Shown: one piece after another, positions 27,869 to 45,003 of the stretch
Numbering within the stretch: position 1 is the stretch's first letter
Layout: every line of letters begins with the position of its first letter
Origin: an uncultured Thiodictyon sp.
GTDB lineage: Bacteria > Pseudomonadota > Gammaproteobacteria > Chromatiales > Chromatiaceae
Reading direction: 5' to 3'
Assembly (NCBI GenBank): GCA_903837595.1
Contig: CAILVI010000533.1
Location: 1-62,840, forward strand
Length of the DNA: 62,840 nt
The notes under the pieces: generated by a model
What the model was told of the DNA's origin: nothing
What the model saw: only the letters and a program-made list of their open reading frames with translations
Databases searched by the model: none
Translations under genes and position numbers: made by a program

Positions 27869-30160
27869 GTGGATATCCGCAGAGTGCGTGCGTTGCTCGG
27901 CCCCAACCCTTGGGCCGATTTTCCCGTGGTCGAGGTCTGGTTCGATCTCTCCGACCATCCACCCGGCGAATGGCTGATGTCAGCTGGCCGGCTGCGGGCG
28001 CGTTTGGCCGCCTGCCTGCCGGGTATGGAACTGCCGCGCCGACCCCCGGCGGACCCGGACCACGCCTGGCATGGGCGGCGGCACGCGCGCTGGCTCGCCC
28101 AAGTGCTGCTTGGGATCATGCTGGAGCTGTCCGCGCGGATCGCCGGGCGGCCGACGTTCAGCCGGGTGCGCCGGACCTCCGAGCCGGGTGTGTACCGGCT
28201 CGCCTTCCGACTGGTCGAGGGCGTCCCGCCGGGCGCCTGCGCCGAGACCGCCCTGGCGATCGTGCGCGCCCTGCTGGCCGAGACTGACTGCGCATTGCCG
28301 GCTTATCTCGACGGCTTGCGCGCAGCGGCCCGGGAGGCCGGGCCGACGCCGACCTGCGCCGCGCTGCTGGCGGCGGCACGCGCCCGTGATATCCCGGTCC
28401 GGCGACTCCCCGGCGAGGTGCTGCTGCTCGGCTACGGCGCCCAGCAGCGACGCCTGTTGGGTACTGGTGTTGCCCTTGCTGCACCGGTTGCTGAGCGGGC
28501 GGCGGCGGAGCGCGAACTGCTCAGCGACCTGTTGGCCTGCGTGGGCCTCAACTGTGCGCCGCAGCCGGTGACCGGCGCCCACTATCGGATCCTGGTCGCC
28601 GGGCGACGGGTCCTGGCGGCACTCTGGTGGCAGCCGGGCCCCGGCGGCAACGGTGCCGGCCCGGTGGTGACAGACGTGAGCGGCCTGATCTGCGGGGCGG
28701 TGCGCGCCCGCGCGCTGGATGCCGCCCAGGTCTTGGGGCTGGAGGCCGCGGAGGTGCGCGTGGTGACGGCGGACATCGCCCGCTCACTGGAGTCGCAGGG
28801 GGGACTGATCAGCGAGGTCATCGCGGCCCCGCCGCTCGACCTTTATCTGACGACGGCGGGCGCTGGCCCCATCGCCGACGCCTTCCTCGACACCCTCTAC
28901 CGGCCCGGGGAGACCGGTCGTATCCCGATCGCGGCCGTCTCTGGGACCAACGGCAAGACCACGGTGACGCGCTTGATTGCCCACGGGCTCGCAGTCTCCG
29001 GGCGCTTTGTCGGCATGACCTGCACCGACGGCATCTATCTGGCCGACCGGCGGATCGACCGGGACGATTGCGCCGGGCCCCAGAGCGCGCGGATGGTGCT
29101 GCTCAATCCGCAGGTGGAGGACGCCGTGCTGGAGACCGCTCGCGGTGGCATCCTGCGCGAGGGCCTGGGCTTCGATGCCTGTGACGTGGCGGTCGTCACC
29201 AATATCGGCGAGGGTGATCACCTGGGGCTGGGGTGGGTCGACACCGTGGCGGGTTTGGCCGAGGTCAAACAGGCGGTGGTGCGCGGGGTCGCCCCCCGGG
29301 GCACCGCTGTGCTCAATGCCGCAGACCCACTGGTGGCCGGGATGGCCCGTTACTGCAAGGGCAAGGTGCTGTTTTTCGGTCGCGACGGCAACCATCCGGT
29401 GATCCTGCGGCAGCGCCGCGAGGGCGGGCGGGTGGCCTTCGTGCGGGGGCAGGACCTGATCCTGGCCGAGGGTGAGACCGAGTCGGTCCTGCTGTCGCTG
29501 AAGCAGATTCCCCTGACCGGCGGTGGACGGATCGGTTTTCAGGTCGAGAACTGCCTGGCCGGCGCCGGTGCGCTATGGGCACTGGGCCTTCCGCTGGCGA
29601 CCCTGGGCGCCGCGTTGGAGACCTTCGGCGCCGACCTGGACAAGAGCCCGGGGCGGTTCAACGTGCTTTCCATCAACGGCGCCACCGTGGTCTTCGACTA
29701 TGGCCACAATCCGTCGGCCCTGCTGGCGATGATCGAGGCCCTGGCGGCCTTCCCACACGGGCGGCGCTTGGCGGTCTATTCGGCGGCGGGGGATCGGCGC
29801 GACGCCGACCTGATCCGCCAAGGTGAGATCCTGGGCCACGCCTTCGATCGCGTGATCCTCTACGAGGACCACTATACCCGCGGGCGCCAGCCGGGTGAGA
29901 TCATGTCACTGTTCGCGCAGGGGCTGACCCGCGGCGACCGGGTCCAGGAGGTCCAGACGATCCAAGGCTGGCAGCACGCGGTGGAGGCGGCCCTGTGGCT
30001 GGCCCAGGTGGGCGACCTGATCCTGATCCAGGCCGACGTGATCGACGAGACCGTCGACTATGTCCGTGCCCGCTTGGCGGAGAGTGAGGCATACCAGGGG
30101 CTGCCGCTGGACCTCCCGGTGATCGCGGTGCTCCCCGAGCCGGCGGCGCCGCTGGCTTAA
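27869..30160 (+). CDS. cphA: cyanophycin synthetase paralogue with intact Mur-ligase half and collapsed ATP-grasp
   Basis: 763 residues from GTG. Cyanophycin synthetases join Asp (ATP-grasp G domain) and Arg (Mur-ligase M domain). Here the N domain starts RRVRALLGPNPWADFPVVEV, and the M domain is complete: P-loop GTNGKTT at 359-365, ARGGILREGLGFDACD, NIGEGDHLG, and FDYGHNPSA in the C-terminal subdomain. The ATP-grasp is broken: about 60 residues around the ATP-binding Lys are missing after APQPV, the DGQSCVRQL region is gone, and the metal motif EVNAGPG reads EVIAAPP. Expected to ligate Arg only. A second paralogue with the opposite loss follows. Confidence 0.88.
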   Translation: MDIRRVRALLGPNPWADFPVVEVWFDLSDHPPGEWLMSAGRLRARLAACLPGMELPRRPPADPDHAWHGRRHARWLAQVLLGIMLELSARIAGRPTFSRVRRTSEPGVYRLAFRLVEGVPPGACAETALAIVRALLAETDCALPAYLDGLRAAAREAGPTPTCAALLAAARARDIPVRRLPGEVLLLGYGAQQRRLLGTGVALAAPVAERAAAERELLSDLLACVGLNCAPQPVTGAHYRILVAGRRVLAALWWQPGPGGNGAGPVVTDVSGLICGAVRARALDAAQVLGLEAAEVRVVTADIARSLESQGGLISEVIAAPPLDLYLTTAGAGPIADAFLDTLYRPGETGRIPIAAVSGTNGKTTVTRLIAHGLAVSGRFVGMTCTDGIYLADRRIDRDDCAGPQSARMVLLNPQVEDAVLETARGGILREGLGFDACDVAVVTNIGEGDHLGLGWVDTVAGLAEVKQAVVRGVAPRGTAVLNAADPLVAGMARYCKGKVLFFGRDGNHPVILRQRREGGRVAFVRGQDLILAEGETESVLLSLKQIPLTGGGRIGFQVENCLAGAGALWALGLPLATLGAALETFGADLDKSPGRFNVLSINGATVVFDYGHNPSALLAMIEALAAFPHGRRLAVYSAAGDRRDADLIRQGEILGHAFDRVILYEDHYTRGRQPGEIMSLFAQGLTRGDRVQEVQTIQGWQHAVEAALWLAQVGDLILIQADVIDETVDYVRARLAESEAYQGLPLDLPVIAVLPEPAAPLA

Positions 30161-30168
30161 GGGGGGAT

Positions 30169-30243
30169 GGTCCGCGCAGCGGACCCTACGCGGCGGCTTC
30201 CCGTGCGTAGGGTCCGCTGCGCGGACCAAACGGCCTTTTTTTC
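30169..30243 (+). terminator. perfect 23-bp inverted repeat with T run
   Basis: Left arm 30169-30191 begins GGTCCGCGCAGCGGACC; right arm 30205-30227 is its exact complement; seven T residues follow at 30236-30242. Fits a strong Rho-independent terminator or attenuator between the two cyanophycin genes. The arm sequence also occurs at 58579-58597, so it derives from a mobile palindrome. Confidence 0.7.
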
Positions 30244-30325
30244 TTAGGCGGTGCTTGCGACCCGGCGGGGAGCGGGCGCCCATCTTCATGCCCAGCCGAG
30301 CTGTGCGCCGGCGCAGGGGGTCAAA

Positions 30326-32470
30326 TTGCTTCATATCCGCCGCCTGCGGGTCCTGCGTGGACCCAATATCTGGGCGCATTTTCCGGTGATCGAGCTGTTA
30401 TTGGACCTGGGGGAGATCAAAGACCGCTCCTCCGAGGAGATCCCCGGCTTCAATGACCGGCTCAAGTCCTGGTTGCCGTCACTGGTCGAGCACGAGTGCA
30501 GCCCGGGTGTGCGCGGTGGCTTCTTCCAGCGGCTGGACCGCGGCACCTACCTGGCCCATATCCTGGAGCACGTCACCTTGGAGCTCCAGACGCTGGCCGG
30601 CACCCCGGTGGGGTATGGGCGTGCCCGGGAGACCGAGGAGGACGGGGTTTACCGGGTCGCCATCGAATACGAGGAGGAGGCCCTGGGCTGTGCCGCGGTG
30701 GAGACGGCCCGTTCGCTCCTGCTCGCCGCCATCCATGACCGGCCGTGCGAGGTGGCGGCCGAGTTGACACGCCTGCGCGACCTGTGCCACGAGGTGCGCC
30801 TGGGTCCCAGCACCCATGCCATCGCGGTGGCGGGCAAGGCGCGGGGTATCCCGGTGCGGCGTTTGGGTAGCGAAAACCTGTTGCAACTGGGGTGGGGCCG
30901 GCGGCAGCGGCGGGTCTGGACCGCCGAGACCGACCGTACCAGCGCCATCGCCGAGTCGATCGCCCAGGACAAGGACTTGACGCGCATGCTGCTGGCCGCC
31001 GCGGGGGTGCCGGTGCCGGTGGGGCGGCCGGTCACGAGCGCGGAGGAGGCCTGGCGGTTTGCCCAGGAATTGGGCGCGCCGGTGGTCGTCAAGCCACGCT
31101 ACGGCAACCATGGTCGTGGTGTGACCACCCATCTGGATACGCCGGGGCAGGTCGAGCAGGCCTTTGCCGCCGCCTGCAAGGAGGGGCCGGACGTCCTGTG
31201 TGAGCGCTTCATCACGGGGTCCGACTATCGCCTGCTGGTGGTCGGCGAGCGGTTGGTGGCGGCCGCCCGGCGTGAGCCGGCCCAGGTCATTGGGGATGGC
31301 CAGTCCTGCGTCCGCCAGCTGGTGGCCGAGGTCAACCGGGACCCGCGCCGCAGCGCCGGCCATTCTACGGTGCTGAGCCTGATCGAACTGGACCAGACCG
31401 CACTGGCGATCCTCACCGATCAAGGGCTGACGACCGAGTCGGTGCCAGCGGTTGGCCAGCGGGTGCCGTTGCGCCACAACGCCAATCTCAGCACCGGCGG
31501 GACCGCCGCCGACGTGACCGACCTGGTACACCCGGACGTTGCCGCGCGCGCCGTGGAGGCGGCCCAGGTGGTCGGTCTCGACATCGCCGGGGTCGACGTC
31601 CTGGCGCAGGATATCGGTCGGCCCTTGGAGGAGCAGGGCGGCGCCATCGTGGAGGTCAACGCCGGGCCGGGGTTGCGAATGCACCTGGAGCCCTCGGCCG
31701 GTTCGCCGCGCCCGGTCGGTGAGGCGATCGTCGACTTGTTGTTCCCCGCCGGCGAAGACGGGCGCATCCCGGTGGTGGCGGTGACCGGGGTCGGCGGCGC
31801 GACGGGCGTGGCCCGGCTCATCGCCCGGTTGATGCGTGCCCGCGGCGACCTGGTGGGCCTGGCCGACGCCGACGGTTTGCACACCGGCGAGCGCGCGCTA
31901 AGCTCCCATGACAGTACCGGTCCCGAGGGCGCCCGGGCGCTGCTGCTGCACCCGCGGATGGCGGCCGTGGTGCTGGAGGTGGCGGGGGAGGGCATCCGTA
32001 GCGAAGGGCTGGGTTTCGACCGCTGCCTGGTCGGCGTGGTGACCCAGGTGGGGGTCGTGGCCGAGCCGGTTGCACCGGGCGGTGAGTCGGTGGATGAACT
32101 GGTGCGGGTCAAGCGTTGTGTGGTCGAGGCGGTGACGCCTGACGGGGCTGCCGTGCTCAATGCCGAAGACCCGCTGGTGGCGGAGATGGCGCCGCGTTGC
32201 CGGGGTGCCGTCGTCTGGTTTGCGCGCGACCCCGGGCACCCGATCGTCACGGCCGCGCTGGCCGAGGGCGGGCGGGCGGTGGTGGAGCACGATGGTTGCA
32301 TCTGCCTGGCCACCGGCGAGACGCGGGAGGCGCTGCTGCCACTCTCGCGAGTGGCAATGACCGCCGGGGACCCGTCCGCTGTCCATGGGCAGGTGCAGGG
32401 TCATCTGGCCGCCGTCGCAGCGGCCTGGGCGCTGGGGTTGCCCCCACGACCTGATCTGTACCGTGCTTGA
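30326..32470 (+). CDS. cphA: cyanophycin synthetase paralogue with intact ATP-grasp and dead, truncated Mur half
   Basis: 714 residues from TTG 30326 (AGGGGG five nt upstream; the family starts close to HIRRLRVLRGPNIW), while the frame is open from 30251. The ATP-grasp is whole: PVVVKPRYGNHGRGV (Lys256), CERFITGSDYRLLVVG, DGQSCVRQLVAEVNRD and the metal motif EVNAGPGLRMH (443-453). The Mur part has lost its P-loop (GVGGATG at 488-494 in place of GTNGKTT) and its NIGEGDHLG motif, and the protein stops after the central domain, lacking the last subdomain with the YGHNP motif. Expected to add Asp only. Confidence 0.87.
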   Translation: MLHIRRLRVLRGPNIWAHFPVIELLLDLGEIKDRSSEEIPGFNDRLKSWLPSLVEHECSPGVRGGFFQRLDRGTYLAHILEHVTLELQTLAGTPVGYGRARETEEDGVYRVAIEYEEEALGCAAVETARSLLLAAIHDRPCEVAAELTRLRDLCHEVRLGPSTHAIAVAGKARGIPVRRLGSENLLQLGWGRRQRRVWTAETDRTSAIAESIAQDKDLTRMLLAAAGVPVPVGRPVTSAEEAWRFAQELGAPVVVKPRYGNHGRGVTTHLDTPGQVEQAFAAACKEGPDVLCERFITGSDYRLLVVGERLVAAARREPAQVIGDGQSCVRQLVAEVNRDPRRSAGHSTVLSLIELDQTALAILTDQGLTTESVPAVGQRVPLRHNANLSTGGTAADVTDLVHPDVAARAVEAAQVVGLDIAGVDVLAQDIGRPLEEQGGAIVEVNAGPGLRMHLEPSAGSPRPVGEAIVDLLFPAGEDGRIPVVAVTGVGGATGVARLIARLMRARGDLVGLADADGLHTGERALSSHDSTGPEGARALLLHPRMAAVVLEVAGEGIRSEGLGFDRCLVGVVTQVGVVAEPVAPGGESVDELVRVKRCVVEAVTPDGAAVLNAEDPLVAEMAPRCRGAVVWFARDPGHPIVTAALAEGGRAVVEHDGCICLATGETREALLPLSRVAMTAGDPSAVHGQVQGHLAAVAAAWALGLPPRPDLYRA

Positions 32471-32482
32471 GGCCTGCCCGCT

Positions 32483-33370
32483 ATGACGATGACCAATGAC
32501 AAGGCCCGCCTGTTGCGGCTCGCCACCTATGCCTCGGTGGCGACCGCCACCCTGTTGATCCTGGTCAAGCTGGGTGCCTGGCTGGTGACCGGGTCGGTCA
32601 GCGTGTTGGCGAGCCTGGTGGACTCGCTGATGGACGTGGGGGCCTCGCTCGTGAACCTGCTGGCGGTGCGCTGGTCACTCCAGCCCGCGGATGAAGACCA
32701 TCGGTTTGGGCACGGCAAGGCCGAGTCCCTGGCCGGGTTGGCGCAGGCCGCCTTCATTGCCGGCTCCGCGGTGTTTCTGGCCCTGGAGGCGGTGGATCGC
32801 CTGATCCATCCGCAGCCGTTGGCCCAACTCGGGGTCGGGGTCGGGGTCATGCTCTTCGCCATCGGCGCGACCCTGATCCTGCTGGCCTTCCAGCGGCGCG
32901 TCATCCGCGAGACCGACTCCACCGCGATCCGCGCCGATGCGCTGCACTATGCCACCGACCTGGCCACCAACTCGGCGACCCTCATCGCGCTGGCGGGTGC
33001 CTTTTTCGGTTTTCCGGGGTTGGACCCGATCTTTGCGCTGGGCATCGCCGTCTTTATCCTCTACAGCGCCGTGCAGATCGCCCGCGAGGCGGTGGACCTG
33101 CTGATGGATCGCGAATTGAGTCCCGAGGATCGGGAGAAGATCCAGACGGTGGCGGCCGCGGTGGCGGGGGTGCTGGGGGTCCATGGGGTGCGCACGCGCC
33201 GCTCCGGGCACACCCCGGTGATGCAAATGCACCTGGAACTGGACGACAACCTGCCCCTCCTTGAAGCCCACGCCATCTGCGATCGGGTGGAGGCCGCCCT
33301 GCGCTCCGAGTTCCCTGGGGCGGACATCACCATCCACCAGGACCCGCGCAGCCTGGGGCCTGAGGGTTAG
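32483..33370 (+). CDS. fieF: cation diffusion facilitator, FieF type
   Basis: 295 residues, six helices and a C-terminal cytoplasmic domain (from about 210). The metal-site motifs DSLMDVGASLVN in helix 2 and DALHYATDLATN in helix 5 match FieF-type exporters of Fe2+, Zn2+ or Cd2+ driven by protons; HRFGHGKAE is the typical loop. Lies 12 bp after the second cphA, so possibly co-transcribed. Confidence 0.9.
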   Translation: MTMTNDKARLLRLATYASVATATLLILVKLGAWLVTGSVSVLASLVDSLMDVGASLVNLLAVRWSLQPADEDHRFGHGKAESLAGLAQAAFIAGSAVFLALEAVDRLIHPQPLAQLGVGVGVMLFAIGATLILLAFQRRVIRETDSTAIRADALHYATDLATNSATLIALAGAFFGFPGLDPIFALGIAVFILYSAVQIAREAVDLLMDRELSPEDREKIQTVAAAVAGVLGVHGVRTRRSGHTPVMQMHLELDDNLPLLEAHAICDRVEAALRSEFPGADITIHQDPRSLGPEG

Positions 33371-44821: not shown

Positions 44822-45003
44822 TGCTAACCCTCCAATAAGGCCAAATCACATCTGCCGGCCTTGGTTATCATCCCGGCTACCGCGCTAGCCGCGAGGTCGT
44901 TGGTCCGCGTAGCGGGCCCTATGAGCTGCCTGGTCCGCAACGATTTTTCGCTCGCTTCGGCGCATTGCAACCGATTGTTTATGCGATGCTTGCGGCTTAA
45001 GTC

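Follow-up and report, generated by a model that had tools for sequence, protein, structure and literature searches.

Cyanophycin is a polymer that serves to store nitrogen, and in most of its known producers a single protein performs the entire synthesis. In this work we have analyzed two adjacent genes for cyanophycin synthetase homologues, designated S1 and S2, which occupy positions 27869-32470 of a contig from an uncultured Thiodictyon sp. (Chromatiaceae) [GenBank: CAILVI010000533.1]; the whole stretch of 62,840 nucleotides is referred to below as the window. Sequence comparisons make it likely that S1 and S2 descend from full-length CphA1-type proteins and are the two subunits, each needed by the other, of one cyanophycin synthetase.

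The CphA1 enzymes with solved structures (TeCphA1, 7wac-7waf; SuCphA1, 7lg5) are built of an N domain, an ATP-grasp (G) domain and a Mur ligase-like (M) domain, and both synthetic reactions take place on one chain. In the CphA1 tetramer, as described in PMC9427784, Gcore forms a dimer interface and Mcore touches the N domain and three Gcores. The cyanobacterial CphA2 (8fxh/8fxi, 7ta5) has lost the P-loop of M and the Mlid subdomain according to the same source, and PMC9262961 describes its N domain as devoid of the Cx19HxxEH motif. Tandem cphA copies have been reported for Accumulibacter, with both copies evenly expressed, and for Tetrasphaera in PMC10687191, which cites Fueser and Steinbuechel 2007 for neighbouring cphA copies, and adjacent cphA1 and cphA2 genes are given for Sideroxydans in PMC5178258. 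A precedent is found in Thiodictyon syntrophicum Cad16, in which THSYN_26990 and THSYN_26995 are named as two cyanophycin synthetase "subunits" (PMC5944118). These two genes probably correspond to S1 and S2 in a closely related bacterium; the available part of that paper does not analyse their domains, catalytic residues or dependence on each other.

A sequence-only reading of the window had proposed a split, obligate synthetase and called it an undescribed system. The split remains the best-supported explanation, on the grounds of co-inheritance and reciprocal constraint, but the claim of novelty was too strong: the pair had probably been named already, and a pair with complementary losses is a variant on two things known before, cphA genes in tandem and the Mur-dead CphA2. 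In the accessible text of the open-licence literature, subscription papers being outside the scope, we found no description of complementary catalytic loss between paired cphA genes.

Division of catalytic sites between S1 and S2

The features of the two genes are as follows (Te, TeCphA1 numbering).

27869..30160, + strand: S1, Mur-only paralogue of cyanophycin synthetase, 763 aa, starting with GTG (open reading frame call, profile and structure matches, residue audit)
27875..28339, + strand: S1 N domain without the zinc-peptidase motif (R/Q/L/G in place of Te C59/H79/E82/H83)
28340..28921, + strand: S1 Gcore remnant, the absent Glid block falling at nt 28555/28556 and the absent Gomega block at 28642/28643
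28922..29611, + strand: S1 Mcore (Te 488-716), P-loop GTNGKTT at 28943-28963
29633..30073, + strand: S1 Mlid, equivalents of R731 and H748 retained
30251..32470, + strand: S2, N plus ATP-grasp paralogue with a dead, truncated Mur part, 739 aa if read from GTG but probably 714 aa, starting at TTG 30326
30335..30796, + strand: S2 N domain, zinc motif intact, HxxEH at 30557-30571
30797..31765, + strand: S2 complete ATP-grasp (G) domain, P-loop of G at 31097-31117, Gomega at 31277-31501
31766..32467, + strand: S2 Mcore, catalytic residues lost (GVGGATG at 31787-31807), no Mlid after it

Both products match the CphA profiles TIGR02068 and PRK14016 and have CphA1s as the closest solved structures, which bears out the two adjacent cyanophycin synthetase frames on the same strand that had been read from the letters. 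S1, S2 and their homologues were aligned to TeCphA1, and the roles of residues were taken from PMC9262961 and PMC9427784. In S1 all ten M-site positions are kept (N497, K499, T500, T522, E558, D585, H586, F692, R731 and H748), in line with the intact Mur ligase recognized earlier from GTNGKTT and YGHNP. Of its ten G-site positions only R309 is retained; K261 and H267 are deleted, the other seven are substituted and the ATP-grasp reads EVIAAPP. The collapse of the ATP-grasp had therefore been seen correctly, but its size, put at about 60 residues, amounts to 129: Te 235-298 (64 aa, inside Glid 235-305) and Te 328-392 (65 aa, inside Gomega 325-399). The loss of the zinc motif from S1 had been overlooked. 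Profile matches follow the same division. S1 matches TIGR02068 at positions 389-859 with 463.9 bits and at 2-263 weakly, with 71.9 bits; Pfam recognizes its Mur middle and C domains, its N domain falls under the cut-off, and the protein scores under the curated cut-offs of both TIGR02068 and PRK14016.

S2 is the reverse of this. Its zinc motif (C59/H79/E82/H83) is intact and nine of the ten G-site positions are kept, the exception being E215, replaced by S as it is in the full CphA of a planctomycete (L018). The M site is dead, with GVGGATG in place of the P-loop and the substitutions T522A, D585A and H586E, and the chain stops at Te 716, the Mcore/Mlid boundary, shortly before Mlid (724-876). 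The retained ATP-grasp, the altered P-loop and the absence of the last Mur subdomain had all been read correctly before. S2 matches positions 2-701 of the 862 of TIGR02068 (814.8 bits, below the curated cut-off) and PRK14016 with 964.9 bits, the sole curated cut-off passed by either gene of the window; Pfam finds the CphA N domain and the RimK-type ATP-grasp, with the Mur middle domain under the cut-off. The true start of S2 is probably TTG 30326, 5 nt past AGGGGG, because six relatives (L011-L015 and L017) have ATG at this place and L010 has a stop immediately before it.

Taken together, the two proteins resemble CphA1 in the N-G-M fold of each and in jointly holding 19 of the 20 checked G and M positions, all but E215. 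They differ from it in that no chain of the pair has both sites. S2 shares with CphA2 the absence of the P-loop of M and of Mlid, but retains the Cx19HxxEH motif of the N domain and the Asp-binding residues of CphA1; its sequence is much nearer to CphA1 (570.9 bits with 7wac versus 206.7 bits with 8fxh). The intact N motif and the sequence distance led us to reject the classification of S2 as an ordinary CphA2. The dead halves survive as Gcore (S1) and Mcore (S2), the parts to which oligomer contacts are ascribed in CphA1.

Recurrence and constraint of the pair

The closest relatives of the pair are found in Chromatiaceae (records titled Thiodictyon, Thiocystis, Lamprocystis, Chromatium and Chromatiaceae bacterium). 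A search of 210 genomes of the order with S1 gave matches in 20 at E <= 1e-40. Twelve of them, namely the genomes of loci L009-L017, the window's own genome, G107 and G132, carry an uninterrupted S1 orthologue (61-100% identity), and an S2-type match adjoins it in 12/12; no partner of this kind is mentioned for CphA2 in the available text of the papers on that enzyme. The remaining matches comprise one broken S1 (G079) and seven genomes with distant homologues only. The nine named Chromatiaceae loci in which both genes are whole (L009-L017) all have the same order, strand and division, S1 being M-only and S2 G-intact and M-dead. We rejected chance or a sequencing or assembly error, because the pattern recurs in orthologues. 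Both genes are fragmented in "Candidatus Thiodictyon intracellulare" (L064) and in G079 (3 Mb), which agrees with PMC8195481, where cphA is reported as lost.

A complete CphA elsewhere in the genome, which the sequence-only reading had named, together with non-expression of the two genes, as one of the observations that would speak against a split enzyme, was not found by TIGR02068 profile search in nine genomes (the window's own, G107, G132, G035, G127, G142, G057, G047 and G079); four of the 12 pair genomes were searched with the S1 query only. In G142 the S2 scores 886 bits, above the family cut-off, yet its match ends at profile position 715. The same adjacent pair was found in a metagenome-assembled genome (MAG) of Planctomycetota (L040/G146), 44% (S1) and 58% (S2) identical to that of the window. 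The combined tree groups its S1 with the S1 clade of Chromatiaceae (support 0.988) and its S2 with their S2 clade (0.993). The profile search found no full CphA in G146 and a third, G-altered homologue.

The gene trees of S1 and S2 from 11 pairs have eight of nine clades in common. None of three trees (combined, N+Gcore and Mcore) makes S1 and S2 sister clades, so a recent local duplication of one gene into both is unsupported.

To assess constraint, the pair of the window was compared with six of the nine named ones (L009, L010, L011, L013, L014 and L017), with dN/dS (omega) given as plain Nei-Gojobori estimates without significance test and with some dS > 1. In S1, Mcore was 79-95% identical (omega 0.08-0.19) and Mlid 81-98% (0.04-0.23), the N domain 54-88% (0.12-0.46), the first part of Gcore 49-79% (0.22-0.47) and the second 62-93% (0.11-0.34). 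In S2 the values were 79-90% for the N domain (0.12-0.21), 81-95% for the first Gcore part (0.10-0.17), 69-88% for Glid with Gomega (0.15-0.23) and 54-83% for the dead Mcore (0.25-0.41). The better-conserved parts were the Mur part of S1 and the N/ATP-grasp part of S2 in 6/6 comparisons. As all omega values lie below 1, the dead halves appear to be still somewhat constrained, as expected of a scaffold.

Distant half-synthetase homologues, Gomega-deleted or M-dead, are present in the same GTDB family (L137 in G054, L135/L136 in G015, L138 in G110 and L139 in G084). We rejected these lone halves as members of the same system, being distant and having no complementary neighbour within the fetched stretch.

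Proposed mechanism and its alternatives

The split synthetase is favoured by co-inheritance, by reciprocal constraint and by the lack of a complete CphA in the nine genomes searched. We infer activity of each retained site, cyanophycin as the product, a complex of S1 with S2, and dependence of each protein on the other. S2, with its N and G parts, would add Asp at the C-terminus of the chain, and its N-domain zinc site could cut chains to provide primers; S1 would add Arg. Most likely the two proteins would take turns at a single chain, either in one mixed oligomer or from one to another. The dead parts, Gcore of S1 and Mcore of S2, would be retained as a scaffold that probably permits mixed S1-S2 oligomers resembling the CphA1 tetramer. 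A precedent is reported in PMC9262961, where engineered heterodimers were active with active sites on different protomers.

Several observations weigh against this proposal. In the available part of PMC9262961 the text speaks of N-site separation and the figure legend of a G-M+N+/G+M-N- combination, so the heterodimers support the sharing of sites between protomers and are not proof of G/M separation. The leftover Glid/Gomega of S1 (34-36 codons) is well conserved (67-97%, omega 0.03-0.28), which the scaffold idea does not specifically predict. At L016 (G047) the zinc motif is lost in S2 too, leaving both partners without it; neither the combined nor the N+Gcore tree places this S2 within the S2 clade, and the genome has one additional homologue with altered G and dead M. 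The Mcore tree places the S1 of L040 among planctomycete full CphAs. The distribution of the pair is patchy, with three listed genomes of genus g57 having no match, and the hairpin between the two genes of the window makes their co-transcription there uncertain. Finally, none of the nine genomes (9/9) gave a match to TIGR02069 or PF03575 (cyanophycinase) or to PF01112 (IaaA, the plant-type isoaspartyl peptidase), IadA and other dipeptidases not having been searched for, and the fate of the polymer and, to a degree, its identity are therefore less secure.

The last result would suit a pair that makes a related but different polymer, with a non-Arg side chain or another backbone, and has a role other than nitrogen storage. 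We regard this as improbable, since the checked site residues of the pair equal those of CphA1 at all positions but one, and a recognised cyanophycinase is given for only 2.8% of the beta-proteobacterial CphA1 genomes in PMC10206079. Somewhat more room, though still little, should be left for a dipeptide-first route, in which S1 would make free beta-Asp-Arg and S2 would polymerise it as CphA2 does, with no alternation on one chain; S2 has both Mur losses known for CphA2, those of the P-loop of M and of Mlid, according to PMC9427784.

Two further explanations deny catalysis to one or both proteins. The retained Gcore of S1 could serve assembly alone, and S1 might then be a non-catalytic scaffold or regulator next to an S2 that polymerises salvaged dipeptides by itself. 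That is very hard to reconcile with an M domain that is among the best-conserved parts of S1 and intact at 10/10 checked residues, and the nine genomes searched yielded neither another full CphA nor a cyanophycinase to supply dipeptides. The least credible case is that both genes are functionless, decaying remnants: catalytic parts are gone from each and both are broken in the endosymbiont, but the frames are open in 12/12 genomes besides it and omega does not exceed 0.47 in any of the domains compared, with the catalytic halves having the lowest values.

If the two-subunit synthetase is real, it provides a natural separation-of-function pair for a three-site polymerase that the consulted papers study as one chain with engineered mutants. 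With it one could ask directly whether the growing chain has to travel from a site on one protomer to a site on another, and in polymer production the levels of Asp addition, Arg addition and primer cutting could be set independently.

Tandem cphA loci in other phyla and the surroundings of the pair

Site classes were assigned at 77 loci, the window and 76 of 80 homologue loci, L032, L052, L064 and L076 being dropped for want of a family frame of at least 600 aa; 30 loci hold two genes. Counting an altered G as G, at least one partner keeps each of G and M at 30/30 tandem loci, and each of N, G and M at 29/30. When the pairing was shuffled 20,000 times, the N+G+M count had a mean of 19.8 and a maximum of 28, and the G+M count a mean of 25.1, with 30/30 reached by 0.2% of shuffles. 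We give the shuffle little weight, because it ignores kinship, counts altered G as present and draws on loci found with an S1 query, which favours intact M.

One arrangement was seen in twelve tandem pairs (L058, L062, L065-L068, L071-L073, L075, L077 and L078) with myxobacterial, proteobacterial and, in one case, planctomycete titles. Their first gene is N-active with an altered G; the second has G and M intact and has lost the zinc motif or lacks the N domain in the frame read. Like S1 and S2 they are adjacent homologues that divide the sites, here partly. They differ in that the second gene keeps both G and M, as neither gene of the window does, and therefore may suffice alone. In the Asp-binding site of the first gene R323 is replaced by G and S396 is missing, with the zinc motif intact, and this protein may use another substrate. 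Taking the altered R323/S396 as a CphA2-like trait is unproven; three further G-altered homologues are nearer to CphA1.

Other divisions were also found. At the Myxococcales MAG locus L059/G147 the first gene has an altered G and a dead M and the second is Gomega-less and M-intact, with a full CphA elsewhere. In L043, L048 and L060 (Acidobacteria) and L074 (Planctomycetia) a G-dead/M-intact gene lies near a gene with intact G and M. The acidobacterial L146 (G148) and L147 (G149) are clusters of three homologues: one G-dead/M-intact, one full-length and one short and G-altered, the last with a frame of 577-616 aa and without the zinc motif, the P-loop of M and Mlid. The site classes thus suggest that division of sites between tandem cphA genes recurs. 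Only in the type shared by Chromatiaceae and L040 does neither gene have both synthetic sites, with no full gene found in the genomes searched. In a broader form, to which we give about an even chance, the subunits of this type would form an obligate hetero-oligomer, each lacking catalytic modules that were removed at module boundaries and are supplied by its partner, and each keeping the assembly scaffold. The type would be the end state of a wider trend towards site sharing by cphA genes in tandem, across Proteobacteria, Myxococcota, Acidobacteriota and Planctomycetota. It would then be a clear example of gene duplication with loss of modules and mutual dependence, several stages of which are visible across phyla.

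Family names mask the pattern, as similar G-reduced proteins are annotated "Mur ligase family protein". Three of this name are plasmid-borne (L143, L144 and L145), with frames of 624-735 aa, intact M motifs and a reduced ATP-grasp (Glid occupancy 0.44, 0.01 and 0.07, respectively). Within the fetched stretches the Deinococcus deserti gene (L145) has neither cyanophycinase nor cphA nearby, that of Legionella adelaidensis (L144) stands beside a cyanophycinase and an isoaspartyl peptidase with no cphA, and that of Roseateles sp. XES5 (L143) stands beside a cyanophycinase and cphA.

Between S1 and S2 of the window lies one further feature.

30169..30227, no strand: REP-like (repetitive extragenic palindrome-like) palindrome, a strong hairpin followed by a T run

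The 106-nt stretch 30155-30260 containing it has a folding energy of -72.9 kcal/mol (z -7.8). Its 17-base core (<=1 mismatch) is present in 26 copies per strand genome-wide versus 1 for the reversed control, and single arms lie in the window at 44902 (3 mismatches) and 58576 (1 mismatch). The S1-S2 gaps are short in L010, L013 and L040. Downstream, a CDF cation-efflux transporter gene (32483-33370) starts 12 bases past the stop of S2 and may be co-transcribed with it; in five of 15 loci compared a CDF homologue directly follows S2 (L009, L010, L012 and L140) or adjoins the broken pair (L064).
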